A stretch of DNA of 38,817 nt, from the NCBI GenBank assembly GCA_900088475.1, contig FLMG01003887.1:1-38817 (forward strand). The letters run 5' to 3'. The DNA is from Hyphochytrium catenoides (Eukaryota; Sar; Hyphochytriomycetes; Hyphochytriales; Hyphochytriaceae). Position numbers and translations under genes: made by a program. Positions 7,462 to 19,517 of the stretch are shown here, one piece after another (position 1 is the first letter of the stretch; each line of letters starts with the position of its first letter). The notes below the pieces were generated by a model. It made no database searches. It was not told the origin of the DNA and saw only the letters and a program-made list of their open reading frames with translations.

Positions 7462-10400
7462 ATGGCCGATAAGGTGTATGGCTCTCCATCGTGTAGGATG
7501 ATTAGGACGCCAGACGCGCAAAACAATCAAGAGACTTCGCCTGCTACGGATGAAGGCCGTGCCTATCAGAGTCTTTCTGGAGGGTTGTTTGGGTCCTTCT
7601 CTAGGGCCGTCCATACGCCAAGCTATAGCTCCCAGACACCTCCTGGCTACCGGCAGCGCGCATCTGCTTTGGAAGGCGAATTAGGAGGACGAGAAAACAG
7701 CTTAGAGGGTTCAAGAAGCGGCCGTCCGGGTGATCTCTTTGACAGCTCTACTTGGAAGCAACCACTGCAAAATCTCTTTGAAGGGGCCGAAAAGGAAGGA
7801 ATCAAGGACAAGAAGTTCGAGGAGGAAGAGCATGAAGATCTCATCAAATGGATGCCAGAACCTGAAGGGGTGATTGTGACAAGCGTGAGCATTGAGAGGG
7901 ATGCACTGATTCCTTACTGCTTGTTTATTGTGGAGGTGAGACCAGGTCTATTATGCTCTAGCTCTTACACATAAGTGTGTTGCTCTTGTCTTGCCTCTTT
8001 AGTCATATCACTGTTTTTCCAATGTCTTTTTAAGTCTATCCATCTACCCGGCTGCCCGTCAGCAGCTGCTGTCTGCCTTGGGCTTAGTCCAAGCCACAGG
8101 GAATACTAGGTCCAGGCTCTGCGACTCTCTTCCAGTTCTACCGCACGTCTCATTCGTTCTTACTGCCTGACGGTCGTCTCTGTTGGTTGTCTCTTGGCAT
8201 GCATTGTGGCCCCTCAATTTCTCCATGGGCACCTTCGCTTCTGTCACATTTCTGACCTTTGTGTTTGACTTGATATGTAGATAAAGAGCGGAAGAACATG
8301 GTGGAGTATCAGAGTAACGCAGAAGCAGCTTGTCAGGCTGTACATCAGGCTGCGCCTCGAGAACCTTCTTGGCAGAGAGGTATAGAGCTGCACTTACTCT
8401 CTGGCCCCTTTCTCTTCTCCCCGTCTTACTTTATATACCGATCCTATAAAGTACGCTAAGATAGCACACTCTCTGTGTCCTTTTATGAAGGCCTTTCCGG
8501 TGCCGGTGCCCTGGGATTTATTTGTGGAGCGAATTGCTACGAGAAGAGTGCTAGACGCGCCGATTGTGGAGAAGTATCTGCAGGATTTACTTCGGCATCC
8601 GCTCATCAGGAAGTGAGTAGAAATGGAGCATTTGAAGAAGGAGACAAGATTGAAAAAGAATTGTGGTGTTTGTGCGAAGAAATAACCAGGACCTGATGCG
8701 AATGACAGAATGGGCTAGAAAAGCATGGACTTAAGAGCTGCATAAGTCTGATTGCTGTGAAGGCTTTGGACAACCATGCACGAAAAGGCTGACCCCTGTG
8801 TAACTTGTCAGGTCCAAAGCTATGCAGAACTTTCTGGAGCTAAGCCCGATGAGGGCCGACATTAGATATGGGCCATCACTGCGAGAGGTGAGACTAGGGG
8901 ATCGATAAGCCTAAGAACCGAAGACAAGACAACCGGAATAGAAGAGTTTGTTCTCTTTTTGTCTCAGGGTTACCAAGTTGAGCTGTGCCCCTCTGTCTCT
9001 GATCTCTCCTGATCTCACTTTTCCAATCCCTTCACTTGGTTGCTTAGGGCTACTGATCTCACTTTTCCAATCCCTTCGTATGATTGCTTAGGGCTACTTG
9101 CACGTGAAAGTAAAGAGTCATGCTACGTTTTATTCGAAGAGAATTGGCAGCGGCTGCAGTCATGTCATAGACGTGCTCGTCAATATCATCCAGTACTTAC
9201 TCCTGGCCTTCTCTATGGCCTTCTTCTTCGTTCCGGTCGCGACTGTTCTGTTCTTCAAAGCGCCATTGGTGCTGATATCCGGCAATCCAAGGGTACGAAA
9301 CAGAAGGCTTAGGTTATCTGCCTCCAAACGGCTCACTTGACAACTCTGTCTGCATCGTCAACGGCCTCTCCCCGTCGTCTTTCAAATGTTTCGATGATGG
9401 TCGTTTTTGTCTCTAATGATCGTCTGACCTTCAGATTATCAGCACACCACCAGCATGGAGTGACAGGCTGGACCGGTTCATCAACTATTCTGCGTTCTTC
9501 ATCTTCTGGCTGTTCTTGTTTGGAGGTAAGACAGCTGCAAACCACTGAACGCCATTGAGGTGGCGTTCTGCTAAAAGGACGGAAAGACTGGTTGTTTATA
9601 ACGCTTGAGCTTTTGAAAGACAGTTATCTTGGGCTACTTGTTTGAAGCTCTTGCCAGTCTGTTAGCGCTAAGTCTGCTATTCTCTAAATTTACTGTTCCC
9701 CTCTGAACTTCGCCGGTGTTTTCCGTAGCCGTTTTCTGGGCCTATCAGTTCTTCCGTGACCGGATCTTTAAGGAGCGTCGCTGGGTAGTGCTGAAGCCTT
9801 CCTGTCTACTGTTTTTCTCTCGGAAAGACGACCTCAAGCCGACCGAGGTTCTTCTTTTTGACGATAGCATGCAAGTCCGGAGAAGCACCATTAGACAAGG
9901 TAATGATGTAATCTCCTCCTATCTTCGGCATTCGCTAGGATCCCCGCTTCTGTCCTAAAGCTCGGCTCTCAAGCTTGGAGAGCATTTAGCTTTGCTCAAG
10001 CAATTCTCTTCGGTTTGCAATTCTCAGAAAGCGCTGCTGCTCACGTCTAAATCCTTGAAGCCCAACACTAACCACCACATGACTTAACCTTTCCTTTCGT
10101 GTCTCTTCTTTTCTTAGCACACCGCTGTGGCCTCTATCTCTCGAAATTCTGCTCTTTCTTACTTGTACCTATTCTTATCCCCGGGTACCTAGTGCTGACC
10201 GTTTTCCGTCTAGGGCTAATGTGGATGCCCAATGGGCTCACGGTGGATGCTTTGATGGGAACTGTGGAGATGGATGCCGGCCATTTATATGCAGTCATCA
10301 TACAGTCCCTGTGTTTTATAAGCTCCTATCTCTTCTTTTCCTTGATGATAGGTGCGTTCGTAGTGTCTGTCGAGTATCTTCAACACTCATCTCTTCCGGT

Positions 10401-13400
10401 CTCTCTCTCTCTCTAATCAAGAGACCCCTCATTCCACCTTGCTATATACCATAATTCTATCTCTGCATAACCTGTGATGCTTTCCTGTGTTTTCACATTG
10501 TGGACGCGGCTGTGGCATTCCTCAAGAAGCATTCTTGTTACCTCTCCCCTATCGCACATGGCAGTATATGTTGATATGGATGCCTCTTCCTTGCCAGCCT
10601 TTCCTTGCCACAACGTTCCTGACTTGCCGCCCTATCCTCAATAACAGAACCTGGTCTTAGCCCATTTGAGCCAGCCCAAGCAGCCGGAAATGCTTTCAAT
10701 ATGTCTTCCTACCCTCCTCCGTTCCTCTTTGTCCCGACCACTGCCAATCCTGGGGACACGTCTGCACAGACCGAGCCCGCTCTCAATTTCAGCTCCTGCG
10801 GCTACTTTCTGGAAGCTCGAGGACCCACCATCTTGTTTGTCAACTCAGAAGAGTTCAGGGCACCTGTTAAGGTACAGCTTGACCGAGGGTGTCTTACTAC
10901 TCTCCCTTCTTGTACATTATACTATCCGCCGTCGACTTTCCTCGCCCTGAGCATTGTAGTGTCGGGGTAGAGTCACGCTATTCCGAAGCCGCCGCTCTTG
11001 CTGACAAGCTTACCTTACTGTTCTTAATGACGGTGTTACCTTCTTCTGGCCTTGAATGCTCAATGAGTCCGCCGTGTCATTCGCGTCGCGTTCACATGTG
11101 TTGTAGGCTATTATTCGCAAGAAAGGATTAACCGACGAGCCAACTAGATGGAGCTACACGAATTGGCACTTTCTATTCGATATTTCTCCATACAATGTCC
11201 GCTTCGAATCCATCTTCCAGCAGGGGGAGCAAGTCATAGCGGAAGAGGGGGACTATGCAGGCGTTGTTGCCAATATCCCCTCTGTGGCTGCATCCATTGG
11301 GCAGAATTACTCATCATTTTTCATCTATACTGAAGGCAGGCCATTCGAGGTTGACGTCCCAGGAGGTAAGATATCTTGTCATGCAAATGAATTGATTCTG
11401 GTGGCGTGGTTCTGGCGTCCGGTCTGCTGCTGTCCTCACTCCCTGGCCATACTGTCCTCCTCTTCGTTACGCAGATCACAATGTTTTTCTTCGTGGTCTG
11501 ACGTCTCAAGATACGGTTCAGTCCATATATCAGGACAGTCGATTTCAGCCTACGGATCAGTTTCTGTGCAATATTCCCGTGATGATTGGAGAATATCGTG
11601 AGTAATTTGCGTAGGAGTGAGCAGTGTGGATGTTGACGTTCTGTGCGCTGCTATCTATGGCCTTCCAAAGCCAAGAAGTTATCTTCCCTCTTTTGAACAG
11701 TTGGCTTTTTGGTCTACAACCACTTCATTTGCCTTGGTCAGTGGTACGCTCAATCGTTTTCGGGATATGTCTCTATCAACTAGTGGGTTCTGGTCTCTTG
11801 AAGGGTGAATCTGACCGACGTATTTTTGCAGAGTCAAGTAGCTGGTCCACGATTTGGCTAGTCTGTATTAGTGGAGCACTTGTCGCTGTCTTCCTCACGT
11901 TCGGCATCTCTTTATTTCTTGCCAAAGTCGGACTCTGCCATGCCAATTCCAGGCGGTATGACACCTTCCTCCTTGCTGAGACAATCTTGGTCGCTTGCTC
12001 TGTCCCGTTGCTTTGGTTCCTTGCCAGCTGCTTATGTCTCTTCACTGTTTCCACGCAACTGTTTGGTGGAGACATTCGTCTTTATGCTAAGGTTAAGCAT
12101 TGCTTTTAGGTCGTTTTGACAAATCGTTCATTTCCATGCCAAGTCTAATAATAACTACTTCCCTTCCGATGTCTACTGATTGTCGATGAGCAGCGATAAT
12201 TGGCTTTACCTATTGAAAGAAGTTAGGGAACATTCCTCATGGAAGCGCAAAAACCGCTTCAAGTCGTTTGCTCCTGTCCGCCAGCCACGAAATTCGGAAG
12301 ACCCACATGCAACGACTTCGTCTTTTAAAGAGCTAGACAAGGTACGTTTACTCTTCTAAAAGCACTTGACGGAGCTTCAGCATCGGTCCAGAAGTCTGTT
12401 CTTATCTTTCCTATCACCTTTCATCTCCTCTTGGCTATTCCAGCACTTGCCCTCTGCGCTACCCATTCCCAACTTGTCTGTAGATCAACTAGTATTCGAG
12501 TACTTTGCCTATTCATTACATATGGCAGTCTAGGTTCTGATACTCTAGTCTTTGCTCTACGGTTCCTCGCAGGGAAGTAGCAAAGTCTTGCGGGCACGAT
12601 TTCCATCTAAGCAGAGCACCACCAGGATTGTAAGCAAGCGCTACCCTCATCTTTCGTTCAAGATTTCCGGAGGGGAGGGCATCGATCTGCTTTCTCCGTC
12701 TGAAGCCATCTCCTTCCCATTTCACTCTGCGACTTCCCAAACTGTGGCACACTCACTTGGGGGAAATAGCTCGGGTGAGCTGAGAGCTAACGGTCATGGG
12801 CAGTCCATAAGTACTCCTCCAGCCTCATTCAAAGACTTGGAAGACGAAGAAGCACAGCCAGAAAAACGAGAAAGGGAGACTGACGAAGATGGCGCTGAGG
12901 GAGGTATTGCCGTTAAGGAAGAGCTCAATGGGCCGAAGGTCAAGTTATTCGTTGATGCGGAACGTACCTTCTCCGCCATGTATGCCGCACTTGTGGCTGC
13001 GGAAGAGCAGGTTTGGCGTCTAAACTCTCCTTTCTCCCACTTCCTTTTCTACACATCCATGCTACACTGTGGCTTCCAGGTTACCGCTGGGTTTGCTATC
13101 GGTGGTTACACTTTCAGTTCTCGCTTGGTTTTCCCTAATCCTTCCATTAGCCTTCTATAATACACTCTCCCGTGCGGCATCTAGCTGACGATCACTCTAT
13201 ACGCTATAGATTTTGATTGCAGGCTGGTGGATCTGTCCTGACGTCCACCTTGTACGGAAACCTCATCTTTTTGGAGATAGCAAGTTGGACAATCTTCTGT
13301 TAAAGAAAGCGGAAGGTGAGTTCTACTAGCATCTCGGGCCCTGCTCCACGCATTTCTGCACTTTCTGCTCTCCTTCTTCATAAGGGAGAACCGAGCATCT

Positions 13401-16400
13401 CGGGAAACCTAGTGTTTTTACAGCCAAATGGGCGCTCATGGAAAGAAGTAATGCGTTTCGAACAGAAAAGTAGATCTCTCGGCGGTCTCTAACTCTTGCC
13501 CCTCGTGCCTCGTGCCTCACGGTGAATTCGGTGCGCTCGATTCTTGCTCTTTATCATCATCAAACCCCGACTCAATGTGGCGCAGAGGGGGTAGAGATCT
13601 ACATCCTAATGTACAAAGAAGTAGCGCTGGCACTGACATTGAATAGTGCGTACACAAAGAGGCGGTTGATGCAGCATCAGAATATTCACATTATCAGACA
13701 TCCCGAGGACTTCCAGCTGCTGGACCTGGGTTTCTGGTCTCATCATGAGAAAATTCTCTGTGTCGACCAGAGGGTTGCCTTTGTGGGAGGTAGGAAGAGC
13801 CACAAGATTGCAATTTCCTGAACCCTCACTATACATCTGAGCCTTTTTACGAGCTACGTGCAGACCTTTTTCGTGAGAGGCGTGTTTGATTGTATCTCGT
13901 CCGTTGGCTAGTGGTACGCTTTTCGACTTTTGTTCTGCCAATTGACCCGATCTTTCCCTTGCAGGTTTGGACCTTTGTTTTGGTCGGTGGGACACTCCCG
14001 ATCACAGACTAGTCGATAGTGAACAGCCTTACACCTGGCCTGGAAAAGACTACTCGAACCCCAGGCAAGAAGCTGCACGTTTCACACTAGCTCCCGCTGT
14101 GGCTCTATTGTCCGTTCCATAAAATCCTGTTCTTGAAAGCTTGCTATGTTGACCCGCCAAATTGCGGTACCTGTCAGATTGCGATTACGTCTTTCTTCTA
14201 ACACCTTCTTCGTGGACACAGGGTAAAGGACTTTGTTGAGCTGGACAAACCTTATGAAGATCTAGTTGATAGAAAATCAGTCCCAAGAATGCCATGGCAC
14301 GATGTCCACTGCGGGTAAGTAGAGATAAAACGTACGAGGTTAAGCCTATGGAGACGCTGTTGGTAGTCTCCCAGGAGCCTTACGTCCTCTGGTCTGCAGT
14401 GTCTTTGGTCTACCAGCTCAAGATATTGGACGACACTTTGTGCTTCGGTGGAACTACATTTGTATGGGAGTGCGCTATGACCTTAAGACAGGTGAGGGGG
14501 AACGGAGTTAGTCGCAAGTATTGTCGCCTTCCTGTGGACCTCTTTTCAAGGTTTCTGATAGCTACATTTGTCATGCGAGTTGGCCAGAGTGCTCTGATGG
14601 CAAGAACTACTGATGTTGGTCATTCGCTTGTCTTCAAACTCCACCCTGTTCTCTCTCCTTTATTGGCATGGCTGCCTGGCTCTCCAACAGTTGCCTTTTA
14701 TGTTCACTCTTATCAAGTACTCCCATTCACTGTGGATCACGCGACTCTTTAGGTCTTTGTCGCTGTTTTCGGCGGCGTCGGCTTCGTCGTGTCGAAAAGT
14801 GCCTGATACCCTACGACTATCAGAATATCTCTGATTCCACGTCGAGCGAAGATTTTGCTCGCTCTTTTGTGGAGGAGCAAGGACCAACTTCTGCTCCACA
14901 AAGGTGGATAATAGGGCGTTTAGGGATGCTTTACCTGTTACCCTGCCATTGTTGCCCAATTCTACTTTGCCCTGTCTGCTGTCGCATTTGGCCTCCTGGA
15001 ACGTTTTGTTGACGCCCGTTTCGCCCGTTTCCGTTGGCTGTCCATCCTTTTGTAATGTCTACCTCTCTTTCGTTCTACTTGGCGCGGTCCGTCTCCTAGG
15101 TAATCCTCTGCCGGGGGATAACGCCCGTCGCTAGTGTGCACGACGACCTTACCTGTTGTCCATCCATTCCTGAGCGATCTCTGAACAGGCTTGCGCTAAC
15201 ATTGAGCTATATTTTCCCATCATCCAACCCTTTAGTGGGGCTCCATCAATTTTGGAAAACAACAAGCCTAGTAAAGTCAAAACTCAGGATGTAGTCAAGG
15301 TTCCTTCCTCCTCAGCAATGTTGCAGCAGCCTCTACCACCCCGGTTGTCGGCGCATGGAGGGATAGAGAGGTAGGGAGTGTTGACAATCCTCCACTTCAT
15401 CATTTCTCGTGCTTTGGTCCGCTAAGTGACAATTGCAATACTTGGACCGAACCAGGCTGCTAACAGAGAAATGGCTGCGGACGGCCAGCGCCGTAAGCGA
15501 AGACAACTGGGTGGACGCTCAGTGTCAGGTTATTAGGAGTCTATCCAAGGTACGTAGCGCTTTCCAGACGTCGAGTTTGCTTTGCTTGCTTGTCGCCGTC
15601 CCTCACCATTTCTCTCAGCTCACTATCCTGTGTAGGGTGTTATGCCAACTCTCCTCTTTCAGCTTAGCGCTCATCGTGTCTATCGTGGTCTATATACCTA
15701 TTAACGCCGTTCTGCTGATTTTTATATTTTCTTCCTTAGTGAAGCGTTACATTGCGTTATTGCGTTACGTTTGTGGGTCACCCATGCTCTGCACCATGGC
15801 ATTTTTTGACCTCGCTTCTTTGGGTGGACCCTGCCGCCTCACCCTTGGCTGATCGTCCACTCACCCACCCCACCAACTCCGTTCTGTGTGACCCTTCATG
15901 CCACGTAGTGGTCAGGCGGCATAAGAACTGAAGCCAGCATTCAGAACGCCTATATCAAGCTTATTCATGGCGCCAAGTCATTTATTTATATAGAAAACCA
16001 GTTTTTTGTCTCCGGCCTGCAAGGGACTTTTGACGTCAAGAACCGGGTGTTGCAGGCGCTTGTTGAGAGGATCACAGAGGCCATCGAGAAAGGAGAGATC
16101 TTTCGGGTTATTGTTGTTATGCCTCTTCTCCCAGCGTTCGAAGGTGAAGTAGACGGAGGGCAGGCATCTACGTTGCATGCTGTGATGCACTGGCAGGTAA
16201 GAAAGCTTAACTTTCCAGCTGCAGAAAGCATTGGTTTTACGATTCTCCTTTATGTCTTCTTCCACTCCTTGTGGTTTCTCGCCTTCCCTCATTGTTGTCC
16301 TGCTGCTAGTATCAAACCATATGCAGAGGAGGACAGTCGCTGTGGGAGAAGGTTGCAGAATTGACTTCGTCACCTGAAAGCTATGTGGCTTTTTTCGGTC

Positions 16401-19400
16401 TCCGGACTTATGATACACTTCCTAACGGAGAGTTTGTGACGGAACAAATATATGTACATAGTAAATGTATGATAGTTGACGATAGAAAGGTGCTTATAGG
16501 GAGTGCCAACATCAACGATAGGAGCCTCAATGGGCACAGGTAAACATCGCCGTCTATCTTCGAAGTCCCTTCTCAGTCTTCCTACCCAAAGACATGCCCA
16601 TGAAGGTCTATGCTTTCTTCCTGACTCGGAATGACTCCTCTCTGGGACCTGACTCCAAAGTGTTTGTTTTGATGTCGCGTCGCGTCGCGTCTTTCACTTC
16701 CGTCTTGGCCTTCTCCGAATTCTCATCTGTACTTACCTACACCTCCCACCTCACTTCGTTTTCAATTGGGCTTTCCCCTGTTTTACTCTCAACGCTGGGT
16801 GCCGTATCCTTTGTAGGGACTCCGAGATCGCTGTGGTAATAGAGGACGTCAACTTCATTGAAGGCTTCCTCGCTGGTAAACCCGCAGCGTTGGGAGTCAC
16901 CGCTCATCAGCTTCGCCTCTCTCTTTTTAGAGAGCACCTAGGGATACAAGAGGACAACGATGAGAAGATACGGCAGATCCTGGATCCAGCTGCAGACGAA
17001 TGTTGGGTGAGCGTCTTTTCCTTCTCAGATCGTGTACATACTAGTTGACCTCTCTTTCTGTTTGCAAGGTGGTATCTCTTCTTTTTGCATCCCCATGCGA
17101 ATACCACTGGCTTGTTGCTCCCCTTGCCCCTAGTTCTTCGACGTAGCTCCTAACATGCTGTCCATTCTTCTCTCGCTGTTAGTCATTCACACTTCTGCGT
17201 AAACTTTCGTTGACCGAGTTTCTTCGTTTCACCATATGCCTGCCTTTCTCAGGGGTATATTAATGCAAGGGCAAAAAAGAACACTGACATCTACGAAGCA
17301 GTTTTTCATCCATTCCCGTCTGATAGAGTAAAGACCTTTAACGATATTCGGTACGGTTGACTGCATCCACTGCCCCTTCTTTCTCTCTTTTGGGATGGAC
17401 CCAGTCTTGACGTTGCGTCTCTAGCTCATAGTGTACCCTCGTCCTAGTGTAGTTTCAATGCTGATTTCGTATCCCGTCCGGGCTCATATTTATCCCTTTC
17501 TTCTATATGCTGCATCTTGTTACGCCCAGCGGCTATGAGCTGGACGAAGTCTTCGAAAATCAGCGACACAACCGACTGCGAATGCAGCGGTGGTCGCAGG
17601 ACAATTTGAATGAAGATGATCCACCTTCCTGGTGCGACATAGCTGGCAGACCAGTCACAGGTAAGCAAAAGAGATCACTCCTCACTAAAGCCTCAAATGT
17701 TAAGTTCGAATTAGTCCCTGAATAGAAGTACTTGAGGGTCGTGCATGGGAGCTTTGTCATCTAGGAATGGGTGACGTATTGAATATGCTGTCTGGCATAG
17801 GTTTTTGATGTTTCTTCTTTCCCAAACCTGTACAAGGTCACGCCTTTGATCTCTCGGGCTGGGTAGTGGCAAAGCCGTCAGAGGAGGAAACTCTCCCGAC
17901 AGACGAGGAAGGCTGGGTCTACGCTTTCTCATTCTCTACGCTTAACCTTCCTATTCATGAGCGACCAATCTGGACAGGGACAGCTCTCAAGTAAGCGGAT
18001 CGACCTTCATTTATCCATGAATTCCTCTCTGATTTATTGGGACATTCTCCTTTTGACCATCGCTGTTGACTTCTATCATATTCTCTCCTCGCTTGCTTCG
18101 TCTTCCTCCATTATTGTCGACATCCCTGAAAGTTATCTCTTCTTCCCTTATCACGTTCTGAGGTCCACTATCTTTGCTTCGTCGCATAGTAACGGATCTT
18201 GAACTTTCTATAGGCCCATTGCTGCTGTCCGACGCCGTCGATGGGTACGCGCGGAACGCCTCTCTGGGTCAGAGGTTCTTATCACGCCCAGAAACTCTGG
18301 ACCGAATATTCACAAGCCGGGGCCAGATGCCATGAGTGCTCTCCACCGACTGGTCAATGAGGAGGAACGAGAGGATAGGATTGCAGGCAGGAAAGACACA
18401 GTTGAGATAATGTAAGCTGTCCTGCTCTTCCTTTGCTCTTGTCCCCTCTTACAATGGCTAACTTGAGTGATATTTTTCCGTGCAGAACGCCGCGTCAGGA
18501 CTCTCCATCCTCTTCCTTCCCACCAGAAGGAAGCCAGAGGAGAGGAAGGAAGGATTCCTCTGCATTTTGGATTGAAGGGATGCTGGACTTGGCGAAGAGT
18601 CAGGCTCAAAGTCTTCTCTCGTCCACCGCGGCAGCGGGTACACAAATTATGCAGAGATTAGACAAGAAGGCTGAAGAGAATCCCAGTTCTAATTCCCCCC
18701 CAGTACGTCCTCCCAGCTGCGGGCAGATTTCTACCTCTTCATTCGAGATGCCATGCTATTCAGTCTGCCTGCCCATTCGTCTGTTGGTTTCTGTTATTCT
18801 GAAGGGAAGCTCTCGAAATCTTAGGTTGTCCTTCAATTGACCTCTAATTCTGTTTTCTTTCATTCTCTTTCTTCCTGTTTCTGTCTCTTTCTCACTCTGC
18901 TCGTTCTCTCCATGCGGACGCTGATCTTCTTGCATTGCCTTCAGATGAGACTTGAGGATGCGAACAAGCTGAATCAAATCAACACGCTCACTCGAGTGCC
19001 AAAAGGTGGAGGAGGAGTACCAACAGAGGATTATCTAGCGGGAATGGATCTCATTGCTGGAGACAAAGAGGAGGAAGAGGAAGAGGATGAGGACAAGGAG
19101 TATGACATAAGTGGCATTATTCTCGATACTCTGCAGACAATGAAAGAGAGGAAAGGGCCTGACGAGGGAACTCTTGCGCCTCCTCCAGATGGATCTGCAG
19201 AGAGAGTCATTCCACGTGAAAAAGGTGTACCTTCATCTGGATCTTCACCTATCCTCCCTACGCCTGTGGCAGAAGAAGAGAAGCGCGCATCTTTCTCTCC
19301 GGCGTGCCCGCCGTCTTCTTTCGTAGACGCGAAGTTAGTGGACACTGTGACGAGCCCCACTGCGCTTAACTATTTAGCAGAAATGGACCAGTGGAACCGA

Positions 19401-19517
19401 GGCATCATCATGAAGAGGCTTTCGAAGATTGAAGGCAACTTAGTGAAGTTTCCTCTGCAGTTTCTGGTGAATGAGAATTTGAAGCCTTCGATGCTGCCCA
19501 AGGATTTGCACATATAG
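7462..19517 (+). CDS. Transmembrane phospholipase D with PX, split PH, HKD and DysF domains (PXTM-PLD class)
   Basis: Hydrolyses phosphatidylcholine-type lipids to phosphatidic acid. My 31-exon model: 7462-7935, 8281-8379, 8491-8612, 8812-8887, 9092-9292, 9435-9525, 9729-9899, 10118-10351, 10648-10871, 11107-11365, 11475-11597, 11832-11955, 12194-12341, 12573-13010, 13210-13315, 13586-13789, 13965-14064, 14222-14314, 14400-14461, 14753-14903, 15236-15370, 15456-15549, 15909-16196, 16310-16539, 16817-17006, 17253-17350, 17530-17660, 17837-17990, 18214-18411, 18486-18702, 18945-19517; 1,935 residues. Domains: PX ~134-247; PH fragments ~258-268, ~364-408 and ~734-747; membrane helices ~286-312, 342-363, 420-444, 472-489, 697-721; PLD ~905-1500 with HKD1 (H1017, K1019, D1024) and HKD2 (H1389, K1391, D1396, then GSANINDRS); DysF ~1512-1625; acidic tail. 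Exons 17/18 use a GC donor. The exon 12/13 junction is uncertain (in-frame TGA at 12177 in the alternative). Resembles Phytophthora PLD1 from memory. The start has an in-frame stop upstream at 7441 but could lie in a further exon. Confidence 0.88.
9009..9096 (+). repeat. 44-bp tandem duplication containing a 3' splice site
   Basis: Two adjacent 44-bp copies (9009-9052 and 9053-9096) differ only in a short internal stretch (CACTTGGT against CGTATGAT). Each contains the pyrimidine tract, the AG acceptor and the first exon bases of PLD exon 5 (TTGCTTAGGGCTA). The second copy's AG (9090-9091) gives the open frame used in the model. Splicing to the first copy's AG (9046-9047) would read Gly-Tyr-stop. 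Confidence 0.9.

Follow-up and report, generated by a model that had tools for sequence, protein, structure and literature searches.

Contig FLMG01003887.1 of the Hyphochytrium catenoides assembly GCA_900088475.1, analysed over its whole 38,817 nucleotides (the window), contains a single phospholipase D (PLD) gene on the forward strand (7462-19517), and the encoded enzyme carries a DysF domain. The gene was spliced by hand at GT-AG sites into 32 exons coding for 1925 residues. The start of exon 8 was set at 10214 from an alignment with eight oomycete-type relatives, and exon 12 (11701-11736; 36 bases, 12 residues), which has no counterpart in the eight aligned relatives, is doubtful. The query for the search for relatives and for the first Pfam scan was a 1957-residue gene model with 32 extra residues at exon 8; a Pfam rerun on the 1925-residue protein returned the same families. 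The intron that follows exon 18 (14065-14221) has a GC-AG boundary.

A sequence-only reading of this DNA had claimed that the DysF signature is present in order, and this was borne out: FENQR (residues 1510-1514, 17552-17566), GWVYAF (1571-1576, 17911-17928) and RRRRWVR (1603-1609, 18230-18250) follow one another in frame and make up the signature ENQR...W...D-x-x-G-W-x-Y...RRRRWxR, as in the alignment of TECPR1 and dysferlin. A profile of TECPR1 and dysferlin scores the window segment at 23.9 bits, compared with a maximum of 10.0 among 2000 shuffles of the segment. Profile-profile comparison gave 94.8% (E 4.9e-8) for the window segment alone and 97.4% (E 1.2e-11) for an alignment of 15 DysF segments, which share 16 invariant columns; the best of 100 column-shuffled controls reached 2.8% (E 0.016). 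The DysF-PLD family profile (A1) matches residues 1498-1611 of the window protein; since the window and 14 relatives went into it, its high scores for those 15 are not independent. The best PDB profile match is TECPR1 (E 0.012), and the predicted fold of a relative, not of the window protein, has the N-terminal DysF domain of TECPR1 as its best structural match. Other scores were lower. Over the 15 segments the TECPR1 and dysferlin profile gives 9.1-32.9 bits, and the shuffles made for three of them reach 10.0, 14.1 and 10.9, values of which some PXTM-type members are not clear; run over the whole window protein, it peaks at 17.2. The reverse test is weaker, as the DysF-PLD profile scores TECPR1 at 18.9 (shuffles at most 11.2) and dysferlin at 8.8, under the shuffle maximum of 11.7. 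The Pfam PF06398 cut-off of 26.8 was not reached by the window piece (10-10.7 bits, covering only positions 275-358 of 358 and no N-terminal part of the Pex24p family domain), and the whole protein gave no match; PF06398 models the whole of Pex24p rather than DysF as such and is no defining test for it. Judged by homology, the presence of a real DysF domain in this PLD is confirmed.

The sequence-only reading had drawn the domain at 17253-18411, right after the end of the PLD domain and fused behind it. DysF does lie inside that span, but exon 27 belongs to the PLD core, and the domain is nested rather than appended because a conserved PLD tail follows further downstream, in exon 32 (19416-19514). 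As aligned, DysF thus separates the catalytic core of the enzyme from its C-terminal tail, lying about 280 residues ahead of the tail in the window protein, and it also stands ahead of the tail in the DysF-PLDs that we aligned. In a model of the relative P0045, the last residue of the protein pairs with residue 933 of human PLD2 in the alignment, and the tail region (residues 1061-1090) has a predicted local distance difference test score (pLDDT) of 82-97, with 56 for the last ten residues. At the DysF site after HKD2, three oomycete PLDs without DysF (P0001, P0077 and P0118) contain a long low-complexity sequence unrelated to it. Of the 74 relatives that lack DysF, 22 yielded no core-to-tail interval; among the five of these inspected (P0001, P0043, P0049, P0077 and P0118), a clearly longer stretch without DysF was seen in P0001, P0043 and P0077, and P0118 has no recognisable PLD tail.

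Table 1. Features of the PLD gene and its product; coordinates are those of the window, residues those of the 1925-residue protein.
Feature	Residues	Coordinates	Strand	Remark
Whole PXTM-type PLD gene		7462..19517	+	32 exons, 31 introns, GT-AG bar one GC-AG
PX-like domain	~136-243	7867..8845	+	exons 1-4; Pfam PX E 0.01, below cut-off; aligns with oomycete PXTM-PLDs
Transmembrane-like segments 1 and 2	293-311 (overlapping second peak 279-297), 339-357	9197..9736	+	hydropathy
PH remnant	~371-436	9776..10287	+	Pfam PH E 0.16, below cut-off; alignment
Transmembrane-like segment 3	439-457	10294..10350	+	hydropathy
Region between segments 3 and 4, ~220 residues	458-678	10351..11851	+	side of membrane inferred
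Transmembrane-like segment 4	679-697	11852..11908	+	hydropathy
PLD catalytic core	~886-1501	12942..17350	+	Pfam PLDc E 1e-15, PLDc_2 E 3.9e-13
HKD1		13741-13767	+	intact
HKD2		16457-16483	+	intact
Exon 27, final stretch of PLD core, not DysF		17253..17350	+	
DysF domain	1504-1611	17534..18256	+	exons 28-30
DysF tip loop 1, HNRLRMQRW	1515-1523	17567..17593	+	by position
DysF tip loop 2	1577-1602	17929..18229	+	by position; split by intron 17991-18213
Conserved PLD C-terminal tail and stop codon	1893-1925	19416..19517	+	exon 32

The window protein is an oomycete-type PXTM-PLD, a subfamily already described. Its PX and PH regions align over their full length with those of relatives, including P0010, which is named Pi-PXTM-PLD, with Pfam scores below the cut-off. 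Hydropathy places two transmembrane segments before the PH remnant, one after it and one ahead of the catalytic core. Given a cytosolic PX start and four such segments, the PH remnant, the catalytic core and DysF would most likely be cytosolic as well, and the region between the third and fourth segments luminal or extracellular. This region holds three of the six N-x-S/T sequons of the protein as well as Cys 508 and Cys 650, both of which are kept in all seven aligned PXTM-type relatives; it resembles an ectodomain of no assigned function, perhaps with a disulphide. Neither a C2 domain, the mark of ferlins, nor tectonin repeats, the mark of TECPR1, gave a Pfam match in the window protein.

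A scan of relatives for the same domain located the insert in 50 of the 124 relatives scanned: 34 with an organism name, all from oomycete genera, and 16 without. From these matches, the architecture is widespread in oomycetes and not unique to the window protein. The search for relatives covers the best 120 of 855 proteins, so that DysF-PLDs may also exist outside the oomycetes. Oomycete PLDs make up the top relatives among the matches listed, and the three that bear the name Pi-PXTM-PLD (P0006, P0010 and P0039) all have DysF. Over the region searched, the window protein is 37-46% identical to P0002-P0042; this level of identity and the many introns of the gene point to a lineage outside the oomycetes sampled. 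A survey with the DysF region alone returned seven proteins including the query, all from Aphanomyces or Thraustotheca, but it depends on shared words and does not measure absence elsewhere. Precomputed Pfam annotation leaves the DysF stretch of oomycete PXTM-PLDs blank. The subfamily was described as having a PX domain, five transmembrane domains and, after the second of these and before the third, a PH remnant (Meijer et al. 2011, PMC3056787), and its Phytophthora infestans member is encoded by a single intronless gene for 1807 residues (PMC3056787). That protein was not found by name among the relatives; P0007 and P0011 share its length of 1807 residues. A later paper terms the class oomycete-specific (PMC6637911). 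Knock-outs or stop mutants of PXTM-PLD have growth defects (PMC3056787, PMC2760151), among them a Phytophthora sojae mutant with a premature stop, which grows less (PMC2760151). The word 'dysferlin' is absent from the accessible text of Meijer et al. 2011 (PMC3056787), and the searchable literature, whose coverage excludes the founding PXTM-PLD paper of Meijer et al. 2005, mentions no PLD with a DysF domain. To that extent the claim that no described PLD carries one stands, but the PLD itself belongs to a described subfamily in whose oomycete members DysF is widespread.

PLDc matches lie on at least five contigs of this genome, and four PLD genes carry the DysF insert: the window gene, C840, C942 and C479, the last recognised by eye and with the family profile. 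The DysF pieces of the three paralogues score 51-82 bits against the DysF-PLD profile and just 2.2-6.9 against that of TECPR1 and dysferlin; their assignment to DysF comes from likeness to DysF-PLDs, not to TECPR1. Two open frames in C942 bridge the domains: one joins the GSANIN region to the first half of DysF, the other joins the second half to the PLD tail and its stop codon. A separate DysF transcript is therefore very unlikely. A tree was built from the core of 39 selected sequences (19 with DysF), with the DysF columns removed, the three paralogues entered as joined tblastn pieces, and midpoint rooting. The window protein groups with oomycete PXTM-PLDs with moderate support (0.89), C942 joins the short oomycete type (0.99) and C479 pairs with C840 (0.99); P0077 and P0118, oomycete proteins without DysF and presumably of the PXPH class, adjoin the PXTM-type clade (0.88). 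The placement of the DysF-PLDs implies that DysF was probably already present in PLD before oomycetes and this organism split, through one gain and a loss or through two gains.

Several other stretches were noticed along the way. Two PLDc motifs lie in a 503-residue open frame on C1036 (221752-222789), unlike the intron-split PLD genes; it is perhaps a bacterial-type PLD or a contaminant. DysF-like stretches at which no PLDc match was found lie on C956 (2600-3700; 20.4 bits with the TECPR1 and dysferlin profile) and on the minus strand of C577 (4900-6300; 32.8 bits with the same profile, and reaching the Pfam Pex24p cut-off). In the window itself, the minus strand of 1366-2766 holds an uninterrupted mannan endo-1,4-beta-mannosidase-like frame whose best named relatives are from chytrid fungi (Gorgonomyces haynaldii, 63% over 93%; a metagenome protein without a name reaches 65%). 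Next to an intron-rich gene, such a frame hints at horizontal transfer.

What DysF might do in a PLD can be approached from its known binding properties. In human dysferlinopathies DysF is a main site of mutation, and for a long time it had no known function (PMC12101077). In 2025 the DysF domain of yeast Pex30 was reported to bind phosphatidic acid through two tip loops with many aromatic and basic residues (PMC12101077, PMC12101078), and on lipid strips other family members and the inner DysF of dysferlin also bind it (PMC12101078). In Spo73, a DysF-only protein, a conserved basic loop is required to reach the prospore membrane (PMC4863634). By position, residues 1515-1523 and 1577-1602 of the window protein would correspond to the membrane-binding regions 1 and 2 of Pex30. 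We propose as the simplest reading, about as probable as all the others together, that the DysF of this PLD is a cytosolic membrane-binding module for an anionic lipid, most plausibly phosphatidic acid. Its basic and hydrophobic tip loops would dip into the same leaflet on which the enzyme works; by recognising the anionic lipid, most likely the PLD product itself, DysF would keep the enzyme at sites that already contain phosphatidic acid and so reinforce, or cap, its local production. A broader and more tentative proposal, to which we give less credence, is that a whole class of PLDs, predating the divergence of oomycetes and this organism, unites enzyme and product sensor in one protein: the nested DysF would read phosphatidic acid and tie PLD output to membranes that are rich in this lipid or lie at contact sites. 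Oomycete cyst formation involves phosphatidic acid (PMC9694693) and is a possible setting.

Several observations weigh against phosphatidic acid sensing. In TECPR1 the same distal part of DysF binds sphingomyelin (PMC12101078), which means that the fold does not reveal the lipid, and the DysF of Pex30 also binds phosphatidylinositol 3-phosphate (PI3P), 4-phosphate (PI4P) and 4,5-bisphosphate (PI4,5P2) weakly on lipid strips (PMC12101077). In vitro the domain required high phosphatidic acid (PMC12101078), and the yeast PLD Spo14 is dispensable for Pex30 accumulation in a seipin mutant (PMC12101077). The two-Trp loop of Pex30 is only partly kept, with both Trp in the five short-type oomycete segments but one Trp and several Arg in the window segment. 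Finally, the low-complexity stretches of P0001, P0077 and P0118 indicate that the insertion site tolerates passengers.

Membrane-damage sensing, which the sequence-only reading had suggested alongside a contact-site role, is possible but unlikely: DysF would act as a TECPR1-like damage or stress sensor that binds a normally hidden far-leaflet (sphingo)lipid and gathers PLD at injured membranes, where phosphatidic acid aids repair. TECPR1 is the best match in both structure and PDB profile and binds exposed sphingomyelin (PMC12128658, PMC12101078), but the phosphatidic acid binding of yeast DysF domains would fit a PLD better (PMC12101077, PMC12101078). Moreover, the enzyme already has transmembrane segments, and likeness of fold does not give the lipid. 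The C-terminal tail of PLD1 is needed for activity. No more probable than damage sensing is a regulatory gate, in which DysF would shift the tail or shield the active site as long as no membrane, lipid or partner is met; the nesting ahead of the tail speaks for it, as does the PLD2-like tail of P0045, modelled with confidence except in its last ten residues, but the 280 or so residues between DysF and tail in the window protein would weaken mechanical coupling. Slightly more doubtful still is a protein-docking or contact-site module with little lipid specificity, as in Pex30-family complexes: these proteins act at contact sites as oligomers (PMC12101078), and the growth defects of PXTM-PLD mutants fit, as they fit any reading (PMC3056787, PMC2760151), but Pex30 without DysF keeps its normal partner interactions (PMC12101078). 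A separate gene for the DysF exons, or their origin in an assembly or splicing artefact, as the weak single-sequence Pfam and PDB matches might suggest, is highly improbable, since the frame is intact through exons 26-32, PLD and DysF share one protein in 50 relatives, C942 has continuous open frames and the P. infestans gene of the same subfamily, whose protein was not matched by name, is intronless (PMC3056787), and the claim that DysF and PLD exons form one gene thus holds.

The presence of DysF in an enzyme that makes the very lipid bound by yeast DysF domains would lend the phosphatidic acid idea support from evolution, independent of the yeast work, and the PLD offers an enzyme assay as a readout of DysF function. 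The DysF assignment also names a blank stretch in a growth-linked subfamily. To our knowledge, PLD would be the first enzyme recognised as a carrier of DysF; human PLD1 and PLD2, which are PXPH-PLDs, are not known to have DysF or transmembrane segments. The window protein and oomycete PXTM-PLDs have in common the PX-like start, the transmembrane segments, the putative PH remnant between the second and third of these, two HKD motifs and the motifs IENQFF and GSANIN; the present analysis adds the DysF insert and the C-terminal tail to this list. It differs from P. infestans PXTM-PLD in having 31 introns in our model against none, four transmembrane segments counted against five reported, and at least four DysF-PLD genes in the genome against a single PXTM-PLD gene. 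TECPR1 and dysferlin/myoferlin resemble it in DysF signature, profile and predicted fold (the fold being that of a relative), whereas it lacks a tectonin or C2 match. The yeast Pex30 family and Spo73 have no PLD domain, the yeast PLD being the separate protein Spo14, but like Pex30, whose DysF binds phosphatidic acid (PMC12101077, PMC12101078), the window protein combines DysF with a membrane anchor.
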